A program made the position numbers and the translations under genes. From positions 1-31,732 of the IMG/VR virus record IMGVR_UViG_3300027801_000096: a stretch of DNA of 31,732 bases; one strand, 5' to 3'. The notes beneath the pieces were generated by a model. That model was given only the letters and a program-made list of their open reading frames with translations. It did not search any database and was not told where the DNA came from. The number at the start of each line of letters is the position of its first letter. Positions within the stretch are counted from its first letter, which is position 1. Shown piece by piece: positions 8,577 through 25,043 of this stretch. The stretch is from a virus.

Positions 8577-9211
8577 TGTGTGATCCAGTAACTTTAGCAG
8601 TAGTAGCGGGGACAGGTGCAACATACGGCACGGCTGCTGTCGTAGGTGGTGCTGTAACAACTGGGATGATAGGTATAGGTTTAACTGTTGGTATGGGTGT
8701 AATGCAATATGCCTCAGCAAGACAAGCAAATAAAGCACAAAACAAAGCTTATGATGCAACTGATACTAGATTAAAAACAGAAATGGAACAGAAGAATTTA
8801 AAAATGATATTAGATTCTAATCAAATTAACAAAGAATACCAGAAAGAAAGAGTAAAAATGTTGTCTACTTTTGCTGCAAGAGGCATCACATTAGGCGGTC
8901 AATCTATTAACGCAGCTTTTAAAACAATGGATGATGACGAAAGGGATGATTTAGCTTTAGCTGGTTTATCTAATTTAGAGTCTCAAACAGTTACTGCTGC
9001 AAATATTTCTGATAACGAAGCTGCAAAAGATGCTTCTAATCAAGCTTATAAAACAGATAGAGCGTTAAGTTTGTTTCAAACAGGAAGACAATTAACAAGT
9101 TCTTTTAGTGAAATATCAGGTGCTAAACCAATTGATAAGTCAAAAGGAAGTAGTGTTACAAGCACCTATAATTCATACAAAGGACCAACAACAGGTTATA
9201 AAATAAATTAA
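8576..9211 (+). CDS. Internal virion protein B, T7 gp14-like
   Basis: At 211 residues it is near T7 gp14 (196), the first ejected protein, which forms the outer-membrane pore. It shares with gp14 the Met-Cys start (MCDPVTLAVVAG), an N-terminal hydrophobic Gly/Ala/Val region (about residues 6-44), then 'QYASARQANKAQNKAYDATD', a long amphipathic helical region and an Arg/Lys-containing centre (QKERVKMLSTFAARGITLGG). The C-terminus is polar. It overlaps both neighbours by one base (TAATG), placing it in an 11-12-14-15-16 order. Sequence divergence from T7 is high, so the assignment relies on length, start, hydrophobic profile and position. Confidence 0.82.
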   Translation: MCDPVTLAVVAGTGATYGTAAVVGGAVTTGMIGIGLTVGMGVMQYASARQANKAQNKAYDATDTRLKTEMEQKNLKMILDSNQINKEYQKERVKMLSTFAARGITLGGQSINAAFKTMDDDERDDLALAGLSNLESQTVTAANISDNEAAKDASNQAYKTDRALSLFQTGRQLTSSFSEISGAKPIDKSKGSSVTSTYNSYKGPTTGYKIN

Positions 9212-11481
9212 TGGCTAAGTTAGTAGATTACAGACCACAGATAGGAATAAATAGAGGTAGAGGTTTATACCAAGCTGCCGCTATAAAAACAAATACAGCC
9301 AATAAGTTTTCACAAGCTCAAGAATATTTTGCCGATGAAACTTTAAAAGCTTTAAAAGAAGAAGGTGAAAAAAGAGGTACTGAAGAAGGAATAGCTTTTC
9401 AATTTGCAGATAAAGAAGTCATGGTTACAGATGAAAATGGGGAAAAAGAATTTATAAACATTCCTCTTCAACCTGAAATACCTGATTATTTAGGCGCTAC
9501 TGCAAGAAAAAGTTTTGAAGCCACTACAAACAAAAGACTTCTTTTAAAGAACCAAAGTCTTGTTGAAAGTATTATTGGCAAAGAATACCTTGAGGCAAAA
9601 GAAAAAGACCTTTCTCCTTCGGTTGTAGAAAATACCATAAACTCTTTAAAGGAAACCTATGTAGAAACTTTAGGTCCAAAATTTGGCGAGTTAATGAAAG
9701 ATCATTGGGACAGCACAGTAAAACAAAAAGGGCTGGGTTATCTGGGTACTTATGGAGAGAGAAGAAAAAAAGAATCTAAAGCTGTTTTAGACAATGAGAC
9801 AATAAATATTTCAAATGACATTAAAGATGCGGCAACAAAAGGTTTAGACTATTCTAGTGATTTTATAAGAGAACACGCAGATGAACTTTATAGCAATGGT
9901 GTAATGACAAAAGTTGAAGCAGATTTATTTTATAATAAAACAAATGGAAACAAAAATGCTTTGCTTGGTATTACAAAAACACTTTCTAAATTTATTGGAG
10001 TAACCAATGATGAGATAAATGGCAAAGATTTAACAACTAGTAATGAGTTAAACGTTAATAGAAAAAGAGTTCTTAGTATGGTAAACATGGACGGAATCCG
10101 TCCAAAGTCAGTTATATTGTCTTCTGGTGGAGAAAAGTTTGTTTTAACTCAAAAAATGGTAGATGAGTTTTCAGACAATGATTTAAGTAATTTTGAAACA
10201 ACTAATGATTTTCTTAAAAAGACTGTTGAAATTACAAGTGAATTATCTAAAGCTTTTCAACTTGAAGTAAGTGCAAACAAACAATTTGAAAGGAATATTT
10301 CTAATCATAATAACGGTGTAGGGCTAGAATATACTATTAAAAAGAAAGATTTTCAAGACTGGATGGACAGTGAAAAAGGAAGAAGTAAAATTACACACCA
10401 GCTTAATTTAAGCTTAAACAAAGGTGAGATGCCTTACACTTCAGATACTGTCTATAGCAATATAGATGCTATTAAAAAGATTGTTAGAAGACATGGAGTT
10501 ATACCAGCTTCACTAGTAGAAACATATCAAAACAAAATAAGAAGTTTAGATCCAAAAAATTTTACTGAAGAGGATTATGAGCTTTTAAATATTCTTCATA
10601 GCTCAGGTTCTTCTCAGGGTAATTTTGATTATCAGGTTGATTGGGGGTTTAGTGCTAAAGTTAAAAAATTAATGGACGAAATTAATCTTACAAGATTGGG
10701 CGACCCAGATGCAAGTCTTACTGAAGTACTTTCAAATGTTCAAGTTAACAGAGACACAAACGTAAGAGAGAAATCAAGAGATGTTTATGAAAGTTTTTAT
10801 GACACATCTAGTTGGAAAGATGCTGGGGCTTTTTCTGAATCAGTCCACCAGAGACTAATGACTGAACTTGCAAACGATCCTAAGTTTGGAGACAAATTAA
10901 CATTGGGAACTTATTTTATCTCTAGTTTAAAATCAAAAGTTTTTAATGAAATAGAAACTTCATCAATACAAACTCTTAACGAAACACAGATAAATTATCA
11001 TATTAAAAATGTTCTTGCTTCAAGTGGTATAAAATATAAATTTGGGAGAAGTAACGCTGTAGTAGGAATTTCTCAAACGATAAGAAAAGATGAGGACTAT
11101 ACAACAGAGTCGTTTGTAGCTTTACCATCCGAACAAATCTATAGCATGGAAGGTGAGTCTACAAAAAACGCTCAAACAAATATACAGAATATGCTTATTG
11201 ATAGACCTATGAATGAAGCTAGCAGAAAACTTTTTAATAAAACTAGTGAAAGAGTATTTTCAGATAAGTTAGGATTAATCCCAACAGATTACAATGTGTT
11301 ACGAGATCATAATTTTGCTCGTAATTTAGACAAAGCTTTTAAAAACGAAGAATTTGATAGACCCGTATACTATGTAGCTGGATGGAATGAAAATAAAAGT
11401 CGTTGGGAAATGCTGGTAGACGAAGACGGTAATTTTTACATCACAGAACAAGATACTTTTAGAAAAAAATTAGAGGAGTAA
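9211..11481 (+). CDS. Internal virion protein C, T7 gp15-like
   Basis: At 756 residues it is nearly the length of T7 gp15 (747), which with gp16 forms the internal core and the periplasmic tunnel during DNA ejection. It is hydrophilic, rich in Lys, Glu and Asn, and mostly helical. The start MAKLVDYRPQIGINRGRGLY resembles the N-terminus of gp15-type proteins ('P x x x...R x x Y'), followed by 'AIKTNTANKFSQAQEYFADE' and long charged helices. No membrane segment is seen, consistent with a periplasmic tube protein. It overlaps the upstream gene (TAATG), and GAGGAG inside its last codons (about 11473-11478) serves the next gene. Position between gp14- and gp16-like genes is the strongest evidence. 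Confidence 0.83.
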   Translation: MAKLVDYRPQIGINRGRGLYQAAAIKTNTANKFSQAQEYFADETLKALKEEGEKRGTEEGIAFQFADKEVMVTDENGEKEFINIPLQPEIPDYLGATARKSFEATTNKRLLLKNQSLVESIIGKEYLEAKEKDLSPSVVENTINSLKETYVETLGPKFGELMKDHWDSTVKQKGLGYLGTYGERRKKESKAVLDNETINISNDIKDAATKGLDYSSDFIREHADELYSNGVMTKVEADLFYNKTNGNKNALLGITKTLSKFIGVTNDEINGKDLTTSNELNVNRKRVLSMVNMDGIRPKSVILSSGGEKFVLTQKMVDEFSDNDLSNFETTNDFLKKTVEITSELSKAFQLEVSANKQFERNISNHNNGVGLEYTIKKKDFQDWMDSEKGRSKITHQLNLSLNKGEMPYTSDTVYSNIDAIKKIVRRHGVIPASLVETYQNKIRSLDPKNFTEEDYELLNILHSSGSSQGNFDYQVDWGFSAKVKKLMDEINLTRLGDPDASLTEVLSNVQVNRDTNVREKSRDVYESFYDTSSWKDAGAFSESVHQRLMTELANDPKFGDKLTLGTYFISSLKSKVFNEIETSSIQTLNETQINYHIKNVLASSGIKYKFGRSNAVVGISQTIRKDEDYTTESFVALPSEQIYSMEGESTKNAQTNIQNMLIDRPMNEASRKLFNKTSERVFSDKLGLIPTDYNVLRDHNFARNLDKAFKNEEFDRPVYYVAGWNENKSRWEMLVDEDGNFYITEQDTFRKKLEE

Positions 11482-21672: not shown

Positions 21673-21843
21673 ATGGCAGCAGGAACTAAACATTATCTTA
21701 AAACAGGTAAAGAATTTAAAGGCGTTGTTCATAAAATGCCTGGAGGTAAAATACATACGGGCAAGGCACATACTGCAAGTTCTAAACCTGTTGTGCATTT
21801 TAAAAATTTATCAGCAGCAGCAAAAAAGGTGGCTAAAGGATAA
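21673..21843 (+). CDS. Small basic His/Lys-rich protein, unknown
   Basis: A 56-residue ORF starting MAAGTKHYLKTGKEFKGVVH and containing HKMPGGKIHTGKAHTASS and VHFKNLSAAAKKVAKG. The pattern 'H-x-L-K-x-G-x-E-[FY]-K-G-x-x-H-K-M-x-x-G-x-x-H-T-G-K-x-H' recurs, as I recall, in small marine phage proteins of unknown function placed just before DUF6321-type genes, exactly as here. AAGGGAT precedes the ATG by a suitable distance and its stop overlaps the next start (TAATG). No enzyme motif or membrane segment. The strong positive charge suggests nucleic-acid or membrane-surface contact, which is inference. Confidence 0.72.
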   Translation: MAAGTKHYLKTGKEFKGVVHKMPGGKIHTGKAHTASSKPVVHFKNLSAAAKKVAKG

Positions 21844-22097
21844 TGGTTTTAAAAAAACATCAAAACCCTACAGGTGGACTCAATGCAGCAGGTAGAGCTC
21901 ACTTTAATAAAAAGACTGGCTCTAAGCTTAAGCCTCCAGTAACAGGCAAAGCTCCTAAAGGTTCTAAAGCTGCAGGTAGACGAGCAAGTTTCTGTGCAAG
22001 AATGGGTGGAGTTAAAGGACCTATGAAAGATTCTAAAGGTAGACCAACGAGGAAAGCATTGGCTTTAAGAAAATGGAAATGCGGAAGAAAATCTTAA
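21843..22097 (+). CDS. Small basic protein, DUF6321-like
   Basis: 84 residues, very basic. The sequence NPTGGLNAAGRAHFNKKTGS, KLKPPVTGKAPKGSKAAGRR, 'ASFCARMGGVKGPMKDSKGR' and PTRKALALRKWKC matches the conserved small phage family I recall as DUF6321 (GGLxAAGRxxYN ... LKPPV ... RRxSFCARM ... PTRKALALRKWxC). The two cysteines (FCARM and WKC) are family-conserved; the function is unknown. The family is usually found among late genes of tailed phages. It overlaps the 56-residue ORF upstream (TAATG) and the exported-protein gene downstream (25 bases), so the three are likely co-translated. Confidence 0.82.
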   Translation: MVLKKHQNPTGGLNAAGRAHFNKKTGSKLKPPVTGKAPKGSKAAGRRASFCARMGGVKGPMKDSKGRPTRKALALRKWKCGRKS

Positions 22098-22678
22098 AAG
22101 GATTAGGCATCTTAGCGTTAATAATCTTAGCCTTGTGCTTAGAGAATGCCATAGCGGATGTTACTTCATCTGGTAGTACAACTAATACCCAATCAAACAA
22201 TGCTGGTTCTAACACAGCAATTACAGGTGGATATGAATCTGCAACCACATATCAGAGTGGCTCATCTTCCAACAGTACAACAAGTAATGAGACAAACAAT
22301 AGTAGCAATACTAAAACTGCTGTAAACAGCTCATCAGCTCCTGCTATGAGCTCATATGGCCAAGATTCGTGCGTTATCCCGTTGGCAGCTGGAGTTACAG
22401 TCATTGGATTTTCAGGTACATTTGGGAGCTACTATAAAGACCCTAACTGCGAAAGAAGAAAATCAGTATCAGTATTATCTAAACTAGGAATGAAAGTAGC
22501 CGCTATCTCACTTATGTGTCAAGACGTTGACGTGTGGCAAGCTATGATGAATGCCGGCACGCCATGCCCTATAGATGGATTGATTGGCGAGAAAGCTAAA
22601 GCAAGATGGATGGAGAAAAGAAAAGGAGAACTGAGGACTACTGGGGATAATAAAACCAGTATGACTTGGAATGAATAG
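22073..22678 (+). CDS. Exported protein with signal peptide, Asn/Ser/Thr-rich linker and four-Cys C-terminal domain
   Basis: 201 residues from ATG 22073; ATG 22079 (MRKKILKG) gives a better signal-peptide start. The basic end and hydrophobic core ILKGLGILALIILALCLENA end in a likely signal-peptidase I site AIA/DVTSS. Because no Ala/Gly/Ser directly precedes the signal cysteine (ALC), it is not a standard lipoprotein. The mature part begins with a ~70-residue Asn/Ser/Thr/Gly-rich linker and continues with a compact domain holding four cysteines: DSCVIPLAAGVTVIGF, DPNCERRKSVSVLSKLGMKV, AAISLMCQD and AMMNAGTPCPIDG. I recall similar 'NCER...GMKVAAxxLMCQD...AGTPCP' domains in marine phages including cyanophages, function unknown. 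An even number of Cys in an exported protein suggests disulfides. The stop overlaps the next exported protein's start. Confidence 0.82.
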   Translation: MEMRKKILKGLGILALIILALCLENAIADVTSSGSTTNTQSNNAGSNTAITGGYESATTYQSGSSSNSTTSNETNNSSNTKTAVNSSSAPAMSSYGQDSCVIPLAAGVTVIGFSGTFGSYYKDPNCERRKSVSVLSKLGMKVAAISLMCQDVDVWQAMMNAGTPCPIDGLIGEKAKARWMEKRKGELRTTGDNKTSMTWNE

Positions 22679-24377
22679 GTTAATAATATTATTATTTCCG
22701 TTATCTTTGTTTGCTGATACTACTGGTAACTTATTACCTCAACAGTTTTTTAATAACAACCAAGGTCATGGTGGCTGGAATTGTAATGACCCCTCACACA
22801 ATCATGGCAACAATACGGTTGCTGCTGTTCATGGAGATTTTATAGAGAACACTATTACACTAGGAGATACACTCAACCAATCAGAAATTAATGGTGGTTG
22901 GACATCTACACTGGGTGCTGATATATGGGGCTGGAACGCCTACGACCAACAAGTTAAGATGACTCAAACTATAACTGACGTAAGTGGCACAGTCACTACA
23001 CAGATAAGAGATGTAGCTATCCCTGGTTGTAGCGGATATAACTGTAGTTCGTATGAAACTTATACAGACAGCTATACACAAGGTATTAACAGCCAATCAA
23101 GTTATAACATTAGAGTAAGGTTTGATTTTACTGAGTCATCCCAGTCTACTTCTCACAGAGCAGTAGACTTAAAAAATCCTACATTAGTAGTAGAGTATAG
23201 TGTCTTAGATGTAAGTCAGGTAGCTGAGTTGAAGACAATGAGTGAAACAGTGTATAATGTTGTGGAAGATATAGACTTCTATGAGTATATACCCGAAGAA
23301 GAATTTAACTTTGAAATAACAGAACAACCGATAATGGAAATGTCCATTATAGAAGAATTTTACTTTGAGCCACAGGCTATTGAAGAATTAAATTCAGGTG
23401 TTGTAAATGTATTTCAGGAGATAACATATGACAGTACAACGAACTTCGAAGAAGTCTCAACAGAAATCAAAGTTGAAGAAGTCTTCTTTGAAACAGGAGA
23501 AAGTTTTGACACTACCCAAGCAAACGGAATTATCCAAGAGTTCTTTAGCGAAGAAATCTACGAAACCCCTATTGAAATTAAGCAAGAAGAAGTCTACGAA
23601 GAACGGGAGACCAACATCCAAACCTCAGACGCTAGCGGAATCACTGAGCGAGAGCCTATACAACAAGAGACTAGCGGAAGAGAAAGTGAAGAAGTCAATG
23701 GAGTCGAGGATACTGGAACAGGAAATGGTAGTCCACCAAGAAAAGACGAAGGAAGAATTGTTGAACAGTCTGGAGAAAACAGCACCGTTGCAGAAAACTC
23801 TAATGATGAAAATTCTAACGAGACTGTATCTCCTGAAACAATTTCTGATAGTGATAGTACAGAAGATACAACTGTTGCTGAAGAAGTAGATGAGCCTGTC
23901 GGAGAAGGAGAAGCAGGAGGAAGTGAATCTGGAAATGAACGAACTGAGGTCGCTGATTCAGGAGAAGAAACCCTCGAAAGCAGAGATACAGAGGTGGAAG
24001 AAAGCGGGACTGAAGGAACTACTAGAGTCAGTAATCAAGCTATTACAGTAGAATCTATAGAGAGAAAGGTTAACGAAACCCTGACAAGGATAGACCAAAG
24101 ACTGGTAGCCACTTCCCTCATTGTGGCACGGGCTATGGAAAGCCCCCTTTCTATGGACAATTACGGCAATACAAACGATAATATATTTAATAACCAACTA
24201 AATATAGATGGTGGAGAATATTATGACCAGAGACAATACATTGATGCTAGAAATATATATGCTGAGAATCAAATTGCATATAACGACCCTATGGCAAAGA
24301 GTCAAAAGATTCTTCAAGAATCTATAGACAATAGAATTAGGGCAGAAGAAAATTTAAAACGAATAAGAGGATATTGA
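22671..24377 (+). CDS. Exported protein with signal peptide, beta-rich N-domain, long acidic stalk and helical C-domain
   Basis: 568 residues. MNRLIILLFPLSLFA is a clear short signal peptide with cleavage before DTTG. Residues 16-180 form a probable beta domain with three Cys, aromatic/Asn-rich (NNNQGHGGWNCNDPSHNHGN; LGADIWGWNAYDQQ; AIPGCSGYNCSSYETYTDSY). Residues about 190-460 are extremely Glu-rich and low-complexity (EEFNFEITEQ, EEFYFEPQ, EEVFFETG, then Glu/Ser/Thr/Gly), probably an extended stalk. Residues 461-568 are helical with NETLTRIDQRLVATSLIVAR and repeated Asn/Tyr motifs (YYDQRQYIDARNIYAENQIA). It overlaps the upstream exported gene by 8 bases, so the two are coupled and likely partners. 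Function not recognised; surface display, envelope modification or virion adhesion are possible. It contains a nested +1-frame ORF. Confidence 0.82.
   Translation: MNRLIILLFPLSLFADTTGNLLPQQFFNNNQGHGGWNCNDPSHNHGNNTVAAVHGDFIENTITLGDTLNQSEINGGWTSTLGADIWGWNAYDQQVKMTQTITDVSGTVTTQIRDVAIPGCSGYNCSSYETYTDSYTQGINSQSSYNIRVRFDFTESSQSTSHRAVDLKNPTLVVEYSVLDVSQVAELKTMSETVYNVVEDIDFYEYIPEEEFNFEITEQPIMEMSIIEEFYFEPQAIEELNSGVVNVFQEITYDSTTNFEEVSTEIKVEEVFFETGESFDTTQANGIIQEFFSEEIYETPIEIKQEEVYEERETNIQTSDASGITEREPIQQETSGRESEEVNGVEDTGTGNGSPPRKDEGRIVEQSGENSTVAENSNDENSNETVSPETISDSDSTEDTTVAEEVDEPVGEGEAGGSESGNERTEVADSGEETLESRDTEVEESGTEGTTRVSNQAITVESIERKVNETLTRIDQRLVATSLIVARAMESPLSMDNYGNTNDNIFNNQLNIDGGEYYDQRQYIDARNIYAENQIAYNDPMAKSQKILQESIDNRIRAEENLKRIRGY
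23416..23420 (+). promoter_or_regulatory. Internal Shine-Dalgarno (AGGAG) ahead of a nested ORF
   Basis: AGGAG lies 7 bases before ATG 23428, which opens a 153-codon frame inside the exported-protein gene. It is a better site than either exported gene has at its own start. It may still be chance, since the sense codons (CAG GAG) are ordinary for this acidic region. Confidence 0.4.
23428..23889 (+). CDS. Nested +1-frame ORF, Lys/Ser-rich with hydrophobic C-terminus (candidate overprinted gene)
   Basis: 153 residues read in the +1 frame within the acidic region of the 22671-24377 gene (its residues about 252-406). The product is very basic (QRTSKKSQQKSKLKKSSLKQ; KLSKKKSTKNGRPTSK) and ends with a hydrophobic/basic helix (MMKILTRLYLLKQFLIVIVQ). 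For: a well-spaced AGGAG, length, and an amphipathic end in a block of membrane proteins. Against: shifting GAA-rich codons by one gives AAG-rich codons with few stops, so length and basicity follow from the parent frame's composition. It is not a classic Rz1, as it has no lipobox or signal peptide. Treat as possible only. Confidence 0.25.
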   Translation: MTVQRTSKKSQQKSKLKKSSLKQEKVLTLPKQTELSKSSLAKKSTKPLLKLSKKKSTKNGRPTSKPQTLAESLSESLYNKRLAEEKVKKSMESRILEQEMVVHQEKTKEELLNSLEKTAPLQKTLMMKILTRLYLLKQFLIVIVQKIQLLLKK

Positions 24378-24378
24378 T

Positions 24379-24612
24379 ATGGGAGTAAAAGAATGGCTTG
24401 GAATAGGCTCACTCATAATTACATTATTAGGATTTGCAATCTTACAGGGAAAGCTAATCGAAAGAATTAATGTATTAGAATCCCAACAATCAGTAGACAT
24501 AAAACCTATTGTAGCAGACATAGCAATTAACAAAGCAGAAATAGCTGTTCTTAACAGTAAGGTTAACGAGATGAAGGCTAGGACAAGTAACCCTCTTGGA
24601 GGTGGTTTATGA
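24379..24612 (+). CDS. Single-TM, coiled-coil membrane protein (lysis-block candidate)
   Basis: 77 residues: an N-terminal membrane segment (about 6-23, WLGIGSLIITLLGFAILQ) followed by a charged helix with heptad spacing (about 24-68, KLIERINVLESQQSVDIKPI then NKAEIAVLNSKVNEMKART). This N-in, single-TM plus periplasmic coil arrangement is that of inner-membrane spanin (Rz-like) subunits or holin accessory proteins, though it is shorter than typical Rz. No partner lipoprotein (o-spanin) is evident. GAGGAT precedes the ATG, and its stop overlaps the next gene's ATG (ATGA), tying it to the three-TM holin candidate. Family not firmly recognised. Confidence 0.72.
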   Translation: MGVKEWLGIGSLIITLLGFAILQGKLIERINVLESQQSVDIKPIVADIAINKAEIAVLNSKVNEMKARTSNPLGGGL

Positions 24613-25043
24613 TACCAATGGAATTAGTAAGCATGGGTGCAAGTACCATATTAGGTGGAGTACTAGGCATCATGGCTCAGAAGGCTAAAGATAAAGCTGA
24701 TGAACAAAAGAATTTAATGGCACGAGCTGGTTTTGTAGCTGAACAAGCAGACAAAGCAAGGGATGTTACGGATTCTTTTACTAAATCAACAAGAAGATAC
24801 ATTGCGTTAATGTGTGTGTTTGCAATTTTAGTATTACCTAAACTTGTATTTCTTATAGCTCCTGAAACTCCTATTTATGTAGGTTATACCGAAGCAGTCA
24901 TGGAAGGATTTTGGATATTTTCATATTCAGTAGATGTAACAGAATGGAAGCCAATGACTGGATTAGTTATCACGCCCCTCGACACGCATGTAGTTAGCTC
25001 AATCATTGGTCTCTACTTTGGAGGTAGCCTAGTAAGGCGGTAA
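24609..25043 (+). CDS. Three-TM holin candidate (GTA/phage 3TM holin type)
   Basis: 144 residues with three hydrophobic segments: about 5-23 (ELVSMGASTILGGVLGIMA), 64-83 (YIALMCVFAILVLPKLVFLI) and 126-142 (HVVSSIIGLYFGGSLV). The first two are separated by a charged, probably amphipathic helix (QKAKDKADEQKNLMARAGFV). The pattern, including 'STRRYIAL' before TM2 and a Trp-containing loop, matches the 3TM holin family (Pfam 'holin of 3TMs, for gene-transfer release'). Holins permeabilise the inner membrane at a set time to release or activate the murein-degrading enzyme. It is coupled to the preceding TM/coil gene by ATGA and to the next gene by TAATG. No endolysin gene is recognisable nearby. 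Confidence 0.78.
   Translation: MIPMELVSMGASTILGGVLGIMAQKAKDKADEQKNLMARAGFVAEQADKARDVTDSFTKSTRRYIALMCVFAILVLPKLVFLIAPETPIYVGYTEAVMEGFWIFSYSVDVTEWKPMTGLVITPLDTHVVSSIIGLYFGGSLVRR

Follow-up and report, generated by a model that had tools for sequence, protein, structure and literature searches.

A gene pair of marine phages with signal-peptide-like N-termini and an exchangeable carbohydrate-binding-type head

We have analyzed two adjacent genes, here termed A and B, within a 31.7-kb stretch of viral DNA (the window, meaning the whole stretch analyzed). Both encode N-termini that look like Sec signal peptides, and the pair is carried by pelagiphages of several types, by roseophages and by at least hundreds of marine viral contigs. 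The new observation is that the head of B is swapped between phages with near-identical adjacent DNA, as recognition domains are. Export of A and B into the host envelope is probable. Our favored reading, which we hold tentatively, is that they form an envelope cassette on the infected cell that recognizes a variable surface target, with masking of a receptor or of the surface as its likeliest purpose.

The gene pair and its neighborhood in the window

The window derives from a T7-like phage, with matches to portal-type, capsid, tail and internal virion proteins. A encodes 201 aa and B 568 aa, and their reading frames overlap by 8 nt, as described in an earlier note on this DNA. The features are as follows.

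21843-22097, + strand: DUF6321 gene, sharing 25 nt with the start of A; it may not belong to the unit
22073-22678, + strand: A, with predicted signal peptide (residues 1-28), Ser/Thr/Asn linker (29-92) and four-Cys domain (~98-180), from alignment and AF2
22671-24377, + strand: B, a putative exported protein, comprising a predicted jelly-roll head, an acidic stalk and a C-terminal domain of helices
22671-22715, + strand: signal-peptide-like N-terminus of B, MNRLIILLFPLSLFA followed by DTTGN
22716-23201, + strand: head of B, residues 16-177, predicted CBM-like jelly roll; the swapped segment, alpha allele
23268-24035, + strand: acidic stalk of B, predicted disordered, residues ~200-455
24036-24374, + strand: helical C-terminal domain of B, residues 456-568, kept in pairs whose heads differ
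24379-24612, + strand: gene C, with N-terminal TM helix, coiled coil and C-terminal NPL motif; the usual third gene of the unit
24609-25043, + strand: possible holin-like TM gene adjoining the unit, matching the function-less phrog_38283 (E = 1.2e-7)

Between 21283 and 28517 the genes are close-packed, with overlaps or gaps of no more than 11 nt. Tail-fiber matches and the DUF6321 gene lie upstream of the pair, and downstream there is a gene matching phrog_511 'internal virion protein' (E = 2e-107). The earlier note had placed the pair in a membrane/lysis block flanked by holin and TM genes. The possible holin at 24609 has no match in Pfam, and on its upstream and downstream matches the block is equally one of tail and virion genes. 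Close packing suggests co-transcription with these virion genes, and the cassette is probably expressed late in the window phage. The DUF6321 gene is present in most close relatives in which this flank is covered. Elsewhere in the window, a 756-aa gene of the internal-virion-protein block (9211-11481) has a borderline Pfam match to MACPF_D2 over residues 302-361 (E = 4.5e-5, 23.8 bits against a cut-off of 24.2).

Signal-like N-termini of A and B

The N-terminus of A is MEMRKKILKGLGILALIILALCLENAIA followed by DVTSS. The presumed signals end at AIA before Asp in A and at LFA before Asp in B. We scored such N-termini with a simple rule rather than with SignalP, requiring a hydrophobic core, charge, and small residues at -3 and -1. 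Both proteins pass, in agreement with the clear signal peptides that had been claimed for them, as do 119 of 126 non-redundant homologues of A and 96 of 103 of B; several of the failures resemble wrongly chosen start codons. The rule is passed by 54 of 487 (11%) other genes of at least 100 aa on the same contigs, a background count that also demanded a soluble mature part, so that the rates are not strictly comparable. At the level of sequence the excess is not due to chance. Close relatives lack a lipobox (0 of 157 for A and 0 of 129 for B), and lipobox-like motifs occur in distant B proteins only, and in a minority of those. Export to the host envelope is the most economical reading of A and B.

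Architecture of the two proteins

The earlier note had described A as a four-Cys domain after a Ser/Thr/Asn linker, and B as a beta domain, a Glu-rich stalk and a helical C-terminal domain, and all of these elements are found. Residues 29-92 of A are 62% Ser, Thr or Asn. Its cysteines are at position 22, within the signal, and at 100, 126, 149 and 165; the latter four are kept in an alignment of 72 homologues, together with motifs around GMKVAA, CQD and GTPCP, and may form disulfides. The AF2 model (pTM 0.35) comprises a hairpin (101-122) and helices (124-189), with pLDDT of ~83-85 in the helices, ~50-72 in the hairpin and low values in the linker. Comparison of the fold with the PDB using Foldseek and VIA gave nothing above Z = 3.2, and a profile search likewise gave none. 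Model confidence is low outside the helices, and we do not claim a new fold. Some relatives of A have a hydrophobic C-terminal tail, suggestive of membrane anchoring in those relatives. Residues 28-166 match PHROG 20531 (E = 1.1e-10), a function-less family that says nothing of B. A PHROG match to 'superinfection exclusion' (E = 0.0047) was discarded because it covers the low-complexity linker.

In the AF2 model of B the beta head (15-177) has blocks of pLDDT 73-97. The stalk corresponds to a low-confidence region (~200-455) with 29% Asp or Glu and 4% Lys or Arg, and is followed by conserved C-terminal helices at 460-490, 496-507 and 540-566. The head is predicted to have a jelly-roll CBM fold. 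Using VIA, 158 residues superimpose on the sugar-binding domain of Fbs1 at 3.0 Å (Z = 16.3), and many CBMs are among the best matches, including CBM16 (Z ~12.9) and CBM61 (Z = 12.7); Foldseek E values start at 4.9e-6. Phage tail-spike domains are also present among the structural matches. In predicted fold the head is like CBM16, 22, 4-9 and 61 and the Fbs1 domain (Z 11-16), but has ~11-13% identity to the top matches and no attached enzyme. It may bind glycans, although a shared fold alone does not show sugar binding.

The 129 heads analyzed fall into three allele classes, of 80, 47 and 2 members. The alpha head has no Pfam CBM match, and the beta allele matches CBM_4_9 below threshold (E 0.02-0.07, 13.9-15.7 bits against a cut-off of 25.9). 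The alpha and beta profiles align with each other (hhalign 92.8%, part of the match being in the signal region), and from their sequences the two are diverged relatives. We considered that the heads might be several unrelated folds, and rejected this. Single linkage places nearly all pelagiphage-type heads in one family, and the alignment of the two profiles is a further argument against it.

Distribution and gene order

A tblastn search with A matched 11 of 50,697 phage records, comprising six pelagiphages including the myovirus Mosig, the environmental Autographiviridae phage S28-C10, two roseophages and two spring-water phages. In IMG/VR, at least 597 stretches encode a relative. B is the next large gene after A in all 125 close relatives with enough sequence, taken as a long ORF starting within 950 nt. 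Across diverse non-redundant loci it follows within 350 nt in 103 of 107, counting the helical partner of roseophages as B, and short ORFs come first in the other four. The genes overlap in 78 of the 103 pairs. Gene C, which has an N-terminal TM and coiled-coil layout by sequence, follows with its NPL end in 66 of 87 cases under a strict pattern. Adjacency of the homologues, on which the earlier idea of a coupled pair depended, therefore holds, but most carriers have A and B within a unit of three genes, A-B-C. The suggestion of a general, undescribed system also stands, since the pair recurs in at least hundreds of marine contigs and we found no description of it in open-access papers. No family in Pfam, NCBIfam or PADLOC covers A or B.

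The unit occupies very different genome positions across phages, lying beside primase and RNR genes in Mosig and beside terminase in HTVC202P. Neither A nor B was found in HTVC022P or in the scanned 25 kb of HTVC027P, two phages for which transcript timing has been published (PMC12753301); HTVC022P does have a homologue of C. The failure to find the pair in this relative and the variable position of the unit suggest an accessory trait.

There are several variants of the arrangement. In carriers of Rhodobacteraceae type, B and C are separated by three additional signal-bearing proteins, D1-D3 (loci L113, L123, L155 and about 50 more, for example L123:6706-8013). By eye D1 looked like a pilin and D2 like a PapD-like chaperone, but profile searches of Pfam, PHROGs and the PDB returned nothing. 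In roseophages a helical, putatively exported protein (B') takes the place of B; it is conserved beside A and has no family match (L193-L272, for example L194:1681-2505). Distant relatives of A without a neighboring B are found in Achromobacter phages JWAlpha and JWDelta, an EBPR podovirus and Agrobacterium phage JP1.

Three further observations concern individual records. Gene C is labeled lysozyme in GenBank in two roseophages, CRP-810 (L006:6207-6629) and CRP-207 (L009:3292-3873); this label is probably wrong, the profile being that of the TM/coiled-coil C gene. The 64-kb viral contig IMGVR_UViG_3300046171_000068 has two A loci (L278 and L288) ~38 kb apart, perhaps through joined genomes or duplication. 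A 335-kb contig filed under Neomarinimicrobiota, possibly a large phage, has an A-B-C unit (L105:7233-11375) in which A is 385 aa and B 853 aa long; neighboring genes there resemble Hsp20 and ClpS by eye.

Exchange of the B head

The head of B is exchanged, as islands of ~500-600 nt in three backgrounds, between phages that share 92-97% identity in the adjacent DNA. Loci L031 and L033 are 94% identical in the core of A and 95% in the C-terminal domain of B, but 24% in the head, and for L029 and L031 the corresponding values are 95%, 94% and 27%. The reverse is seen for L019 and L031, where A is 61%, the B C-terminus 41% and the head 80% identical. Among near relatives, in pairs that are not independent, identity in the A core correlates with that in the B C-terminus (rho 0.48), whereas head identity correlates weakly with A (0.23) and not with the C-terminus (0.09). 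DNA identity is 32-53% across the head and 92-100% beyond its far side, with a weaker dip to 67-78% over the signal and linker part of A.

In 41 contig pairs the flanks are at least 90% identical and the heads differ. These collapse to three backgrounds: L031/L305 (one contig) versus the L278 group and relatives; L372 versus L370, L371, L373 and L374; and L367 versus L389. Downstream identity is 96.4% over 6.6 kb for L370/L372 and 97.2% over 2.9 kb for L367/L389, the upstream side being more diverged at 80-90%. Each swap has few contigs on one side, so any single one could be a chimeric assembly, but three swaps in different backgrounds make this unlikely overall. No tail-fiber gene was identified in the swap-pair contigs. 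Receptor-binding and surface-recognition proteins behave in this way, a recognition-type head being exchanged while its partners are conserved. Such exchange of a CBM-type head between otherwise near-identical phages points to a role in recognition on the infected cell.

A possible recognition cassette in the host envelope

If A and B form a recognition cassette, this accessory unit would reach the envelope of the infected host by Sec export. A would fold in the periplasm as a disulfide-stabilized four-Cys domain, and C would be an inner-membrane protein. B would display its carbohydrate-binding-type head on the long acidic disordered stalk, held through its conserved C-terminal helices by probable docking to A, to the coiled coil of C, or to both. 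The target of the head would vary between hosts or competing phages, and would most likely be a surface glycan or LPS that is the phage receptor. Masking of the infected cell or of debris would then give superinfection exclusion, or protect progeny from re-adsorbing.

The exchange of a carbohydrate-binding-type head between near-identical phages indirectly favors receptor masking or superinfection exclusion, both among the roles suggested in the earlier note. A late gene would suit the task of shielding progeny from receptors on cells and debris, by analogy with T5 Llp, a small lipoprotein reported to protect progeny from re-adsorbing. Like Llp-type exclusion and masking proteins, A and B are phage-encoded, accessory and putatively exported, and would shield a receptor. 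They differ in having no lipobox, in belonging to a two- or three-gene unit and in the predicted glycan-binding-type head on a stalk. Other considerations count against masking. We know of no outer-membrane exporter able to place B on the outer surface, and a head confined to the periplasm would not directly mask a surface receptor. Moreover, classical exclusion genes are mostly early, whereas the unit looks late in the window.

The stronger proposal that A-B-C is a categorically new phage envelope machine, acting where phages compete over SAR11 and Roseobacter cells, seems to us doubtful. The four-Cys periplasmic A and the inner-membrane coiled coil of C would together hold a long acidic tether showing exchangeable glycan-recognition heads, and the machine would be used by unrelated marine phages. 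The pelagiphage curli/type VIII secretion genes (PMC9599517, PMC9004378) are comparable as a multi-gene, putatively exported envelope trait across marine phage groups. They are different genes, and A, B and the B homologues have no Pfam match to a curlin repeat or Csg profile.

Alternative roles

Envelope disruption, as the earlier note had also proposed, would place C in the inner membrane and B across the periplasm, with A and B acting on the outer membrane at lysis in the manner of a spanin. C has the layout of an i-spanin, and the overlapping gene pair recalls two-component spanins of the Rz/Rz1 type. Lysis genes are found near the unit in several carriers: an M15 peptidase in HTVC023P, lysozyme in L007, GTA_holin_3TM with a weak GH19 match in L155, and GTA_holin_3TM with M15 in L095. 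In a survey of 677 phages, 91 had no recognized spanin, and many of those 91 are marine cyanophages (PMC6139136). Yet lysis families are rare in 24-31 sampled neighborhoods and occur on both sides, and low counts on either side of A were also obtained when lysis genes were looked for with a simple seed search. The position of the unit in Mosig and HTVC202P, and the C homologue without A and B in HTVC022P, do not fit lysis, and a swappable sugar-binding-type head is unexpected for a lysis protein. The lipobox-free A and B together with inconsistent linkage to lysis genes rule out a canonical spanin, and count against envelope disruption; a spanin-like role of some kind is rather unlikely.

We also regard as unlikely that A and B are one lineage within a general family of exported envelope-modifying proteins that serves a different role, such as a surface fiber, a periplasmic inhibitor or nutrient binding. 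The added D1-D3 proteins and the distant A relatives that lack a neighboring B would accord with this, but no enzyme, transporter or fiber family was found using Pfam, PHROGs, NCBIfam and PDB profiles.

Finally, we consider it unlikely, more so than the other alternatives, that B together with A serves the virion as an adhesin or decoration, a role that the earlier note had also suggested; B would then be a stalked appendage for glycan binding that particles gain in the periplasm or lysate. Receptor-binding proteins likewise combine a variable head with a conserved stalk and anchor, the window neighbors are tail-fiber and internal virion genes and the head has tail-spike domains among its structural matches, but signal-like N-termini would take both proteins away from the cytoplasm where virions assemble, and in Mosig and HTVC202P the pair lies outside the structural module.

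Significance

SAR11 phages rank with the most abundant biological entities, and to our knowledge little is known of how an infected SAR11 cell interacts with further phages. If outer-membrane disruption were the function of the cassette, it would help to explain marine phages that have no recognized spanin. If instead it is the cell surface that the cassette masks or alters, competition between phages in the ocean would become open to concrete tests, and the exchangeable heads would report which surface targets are important.
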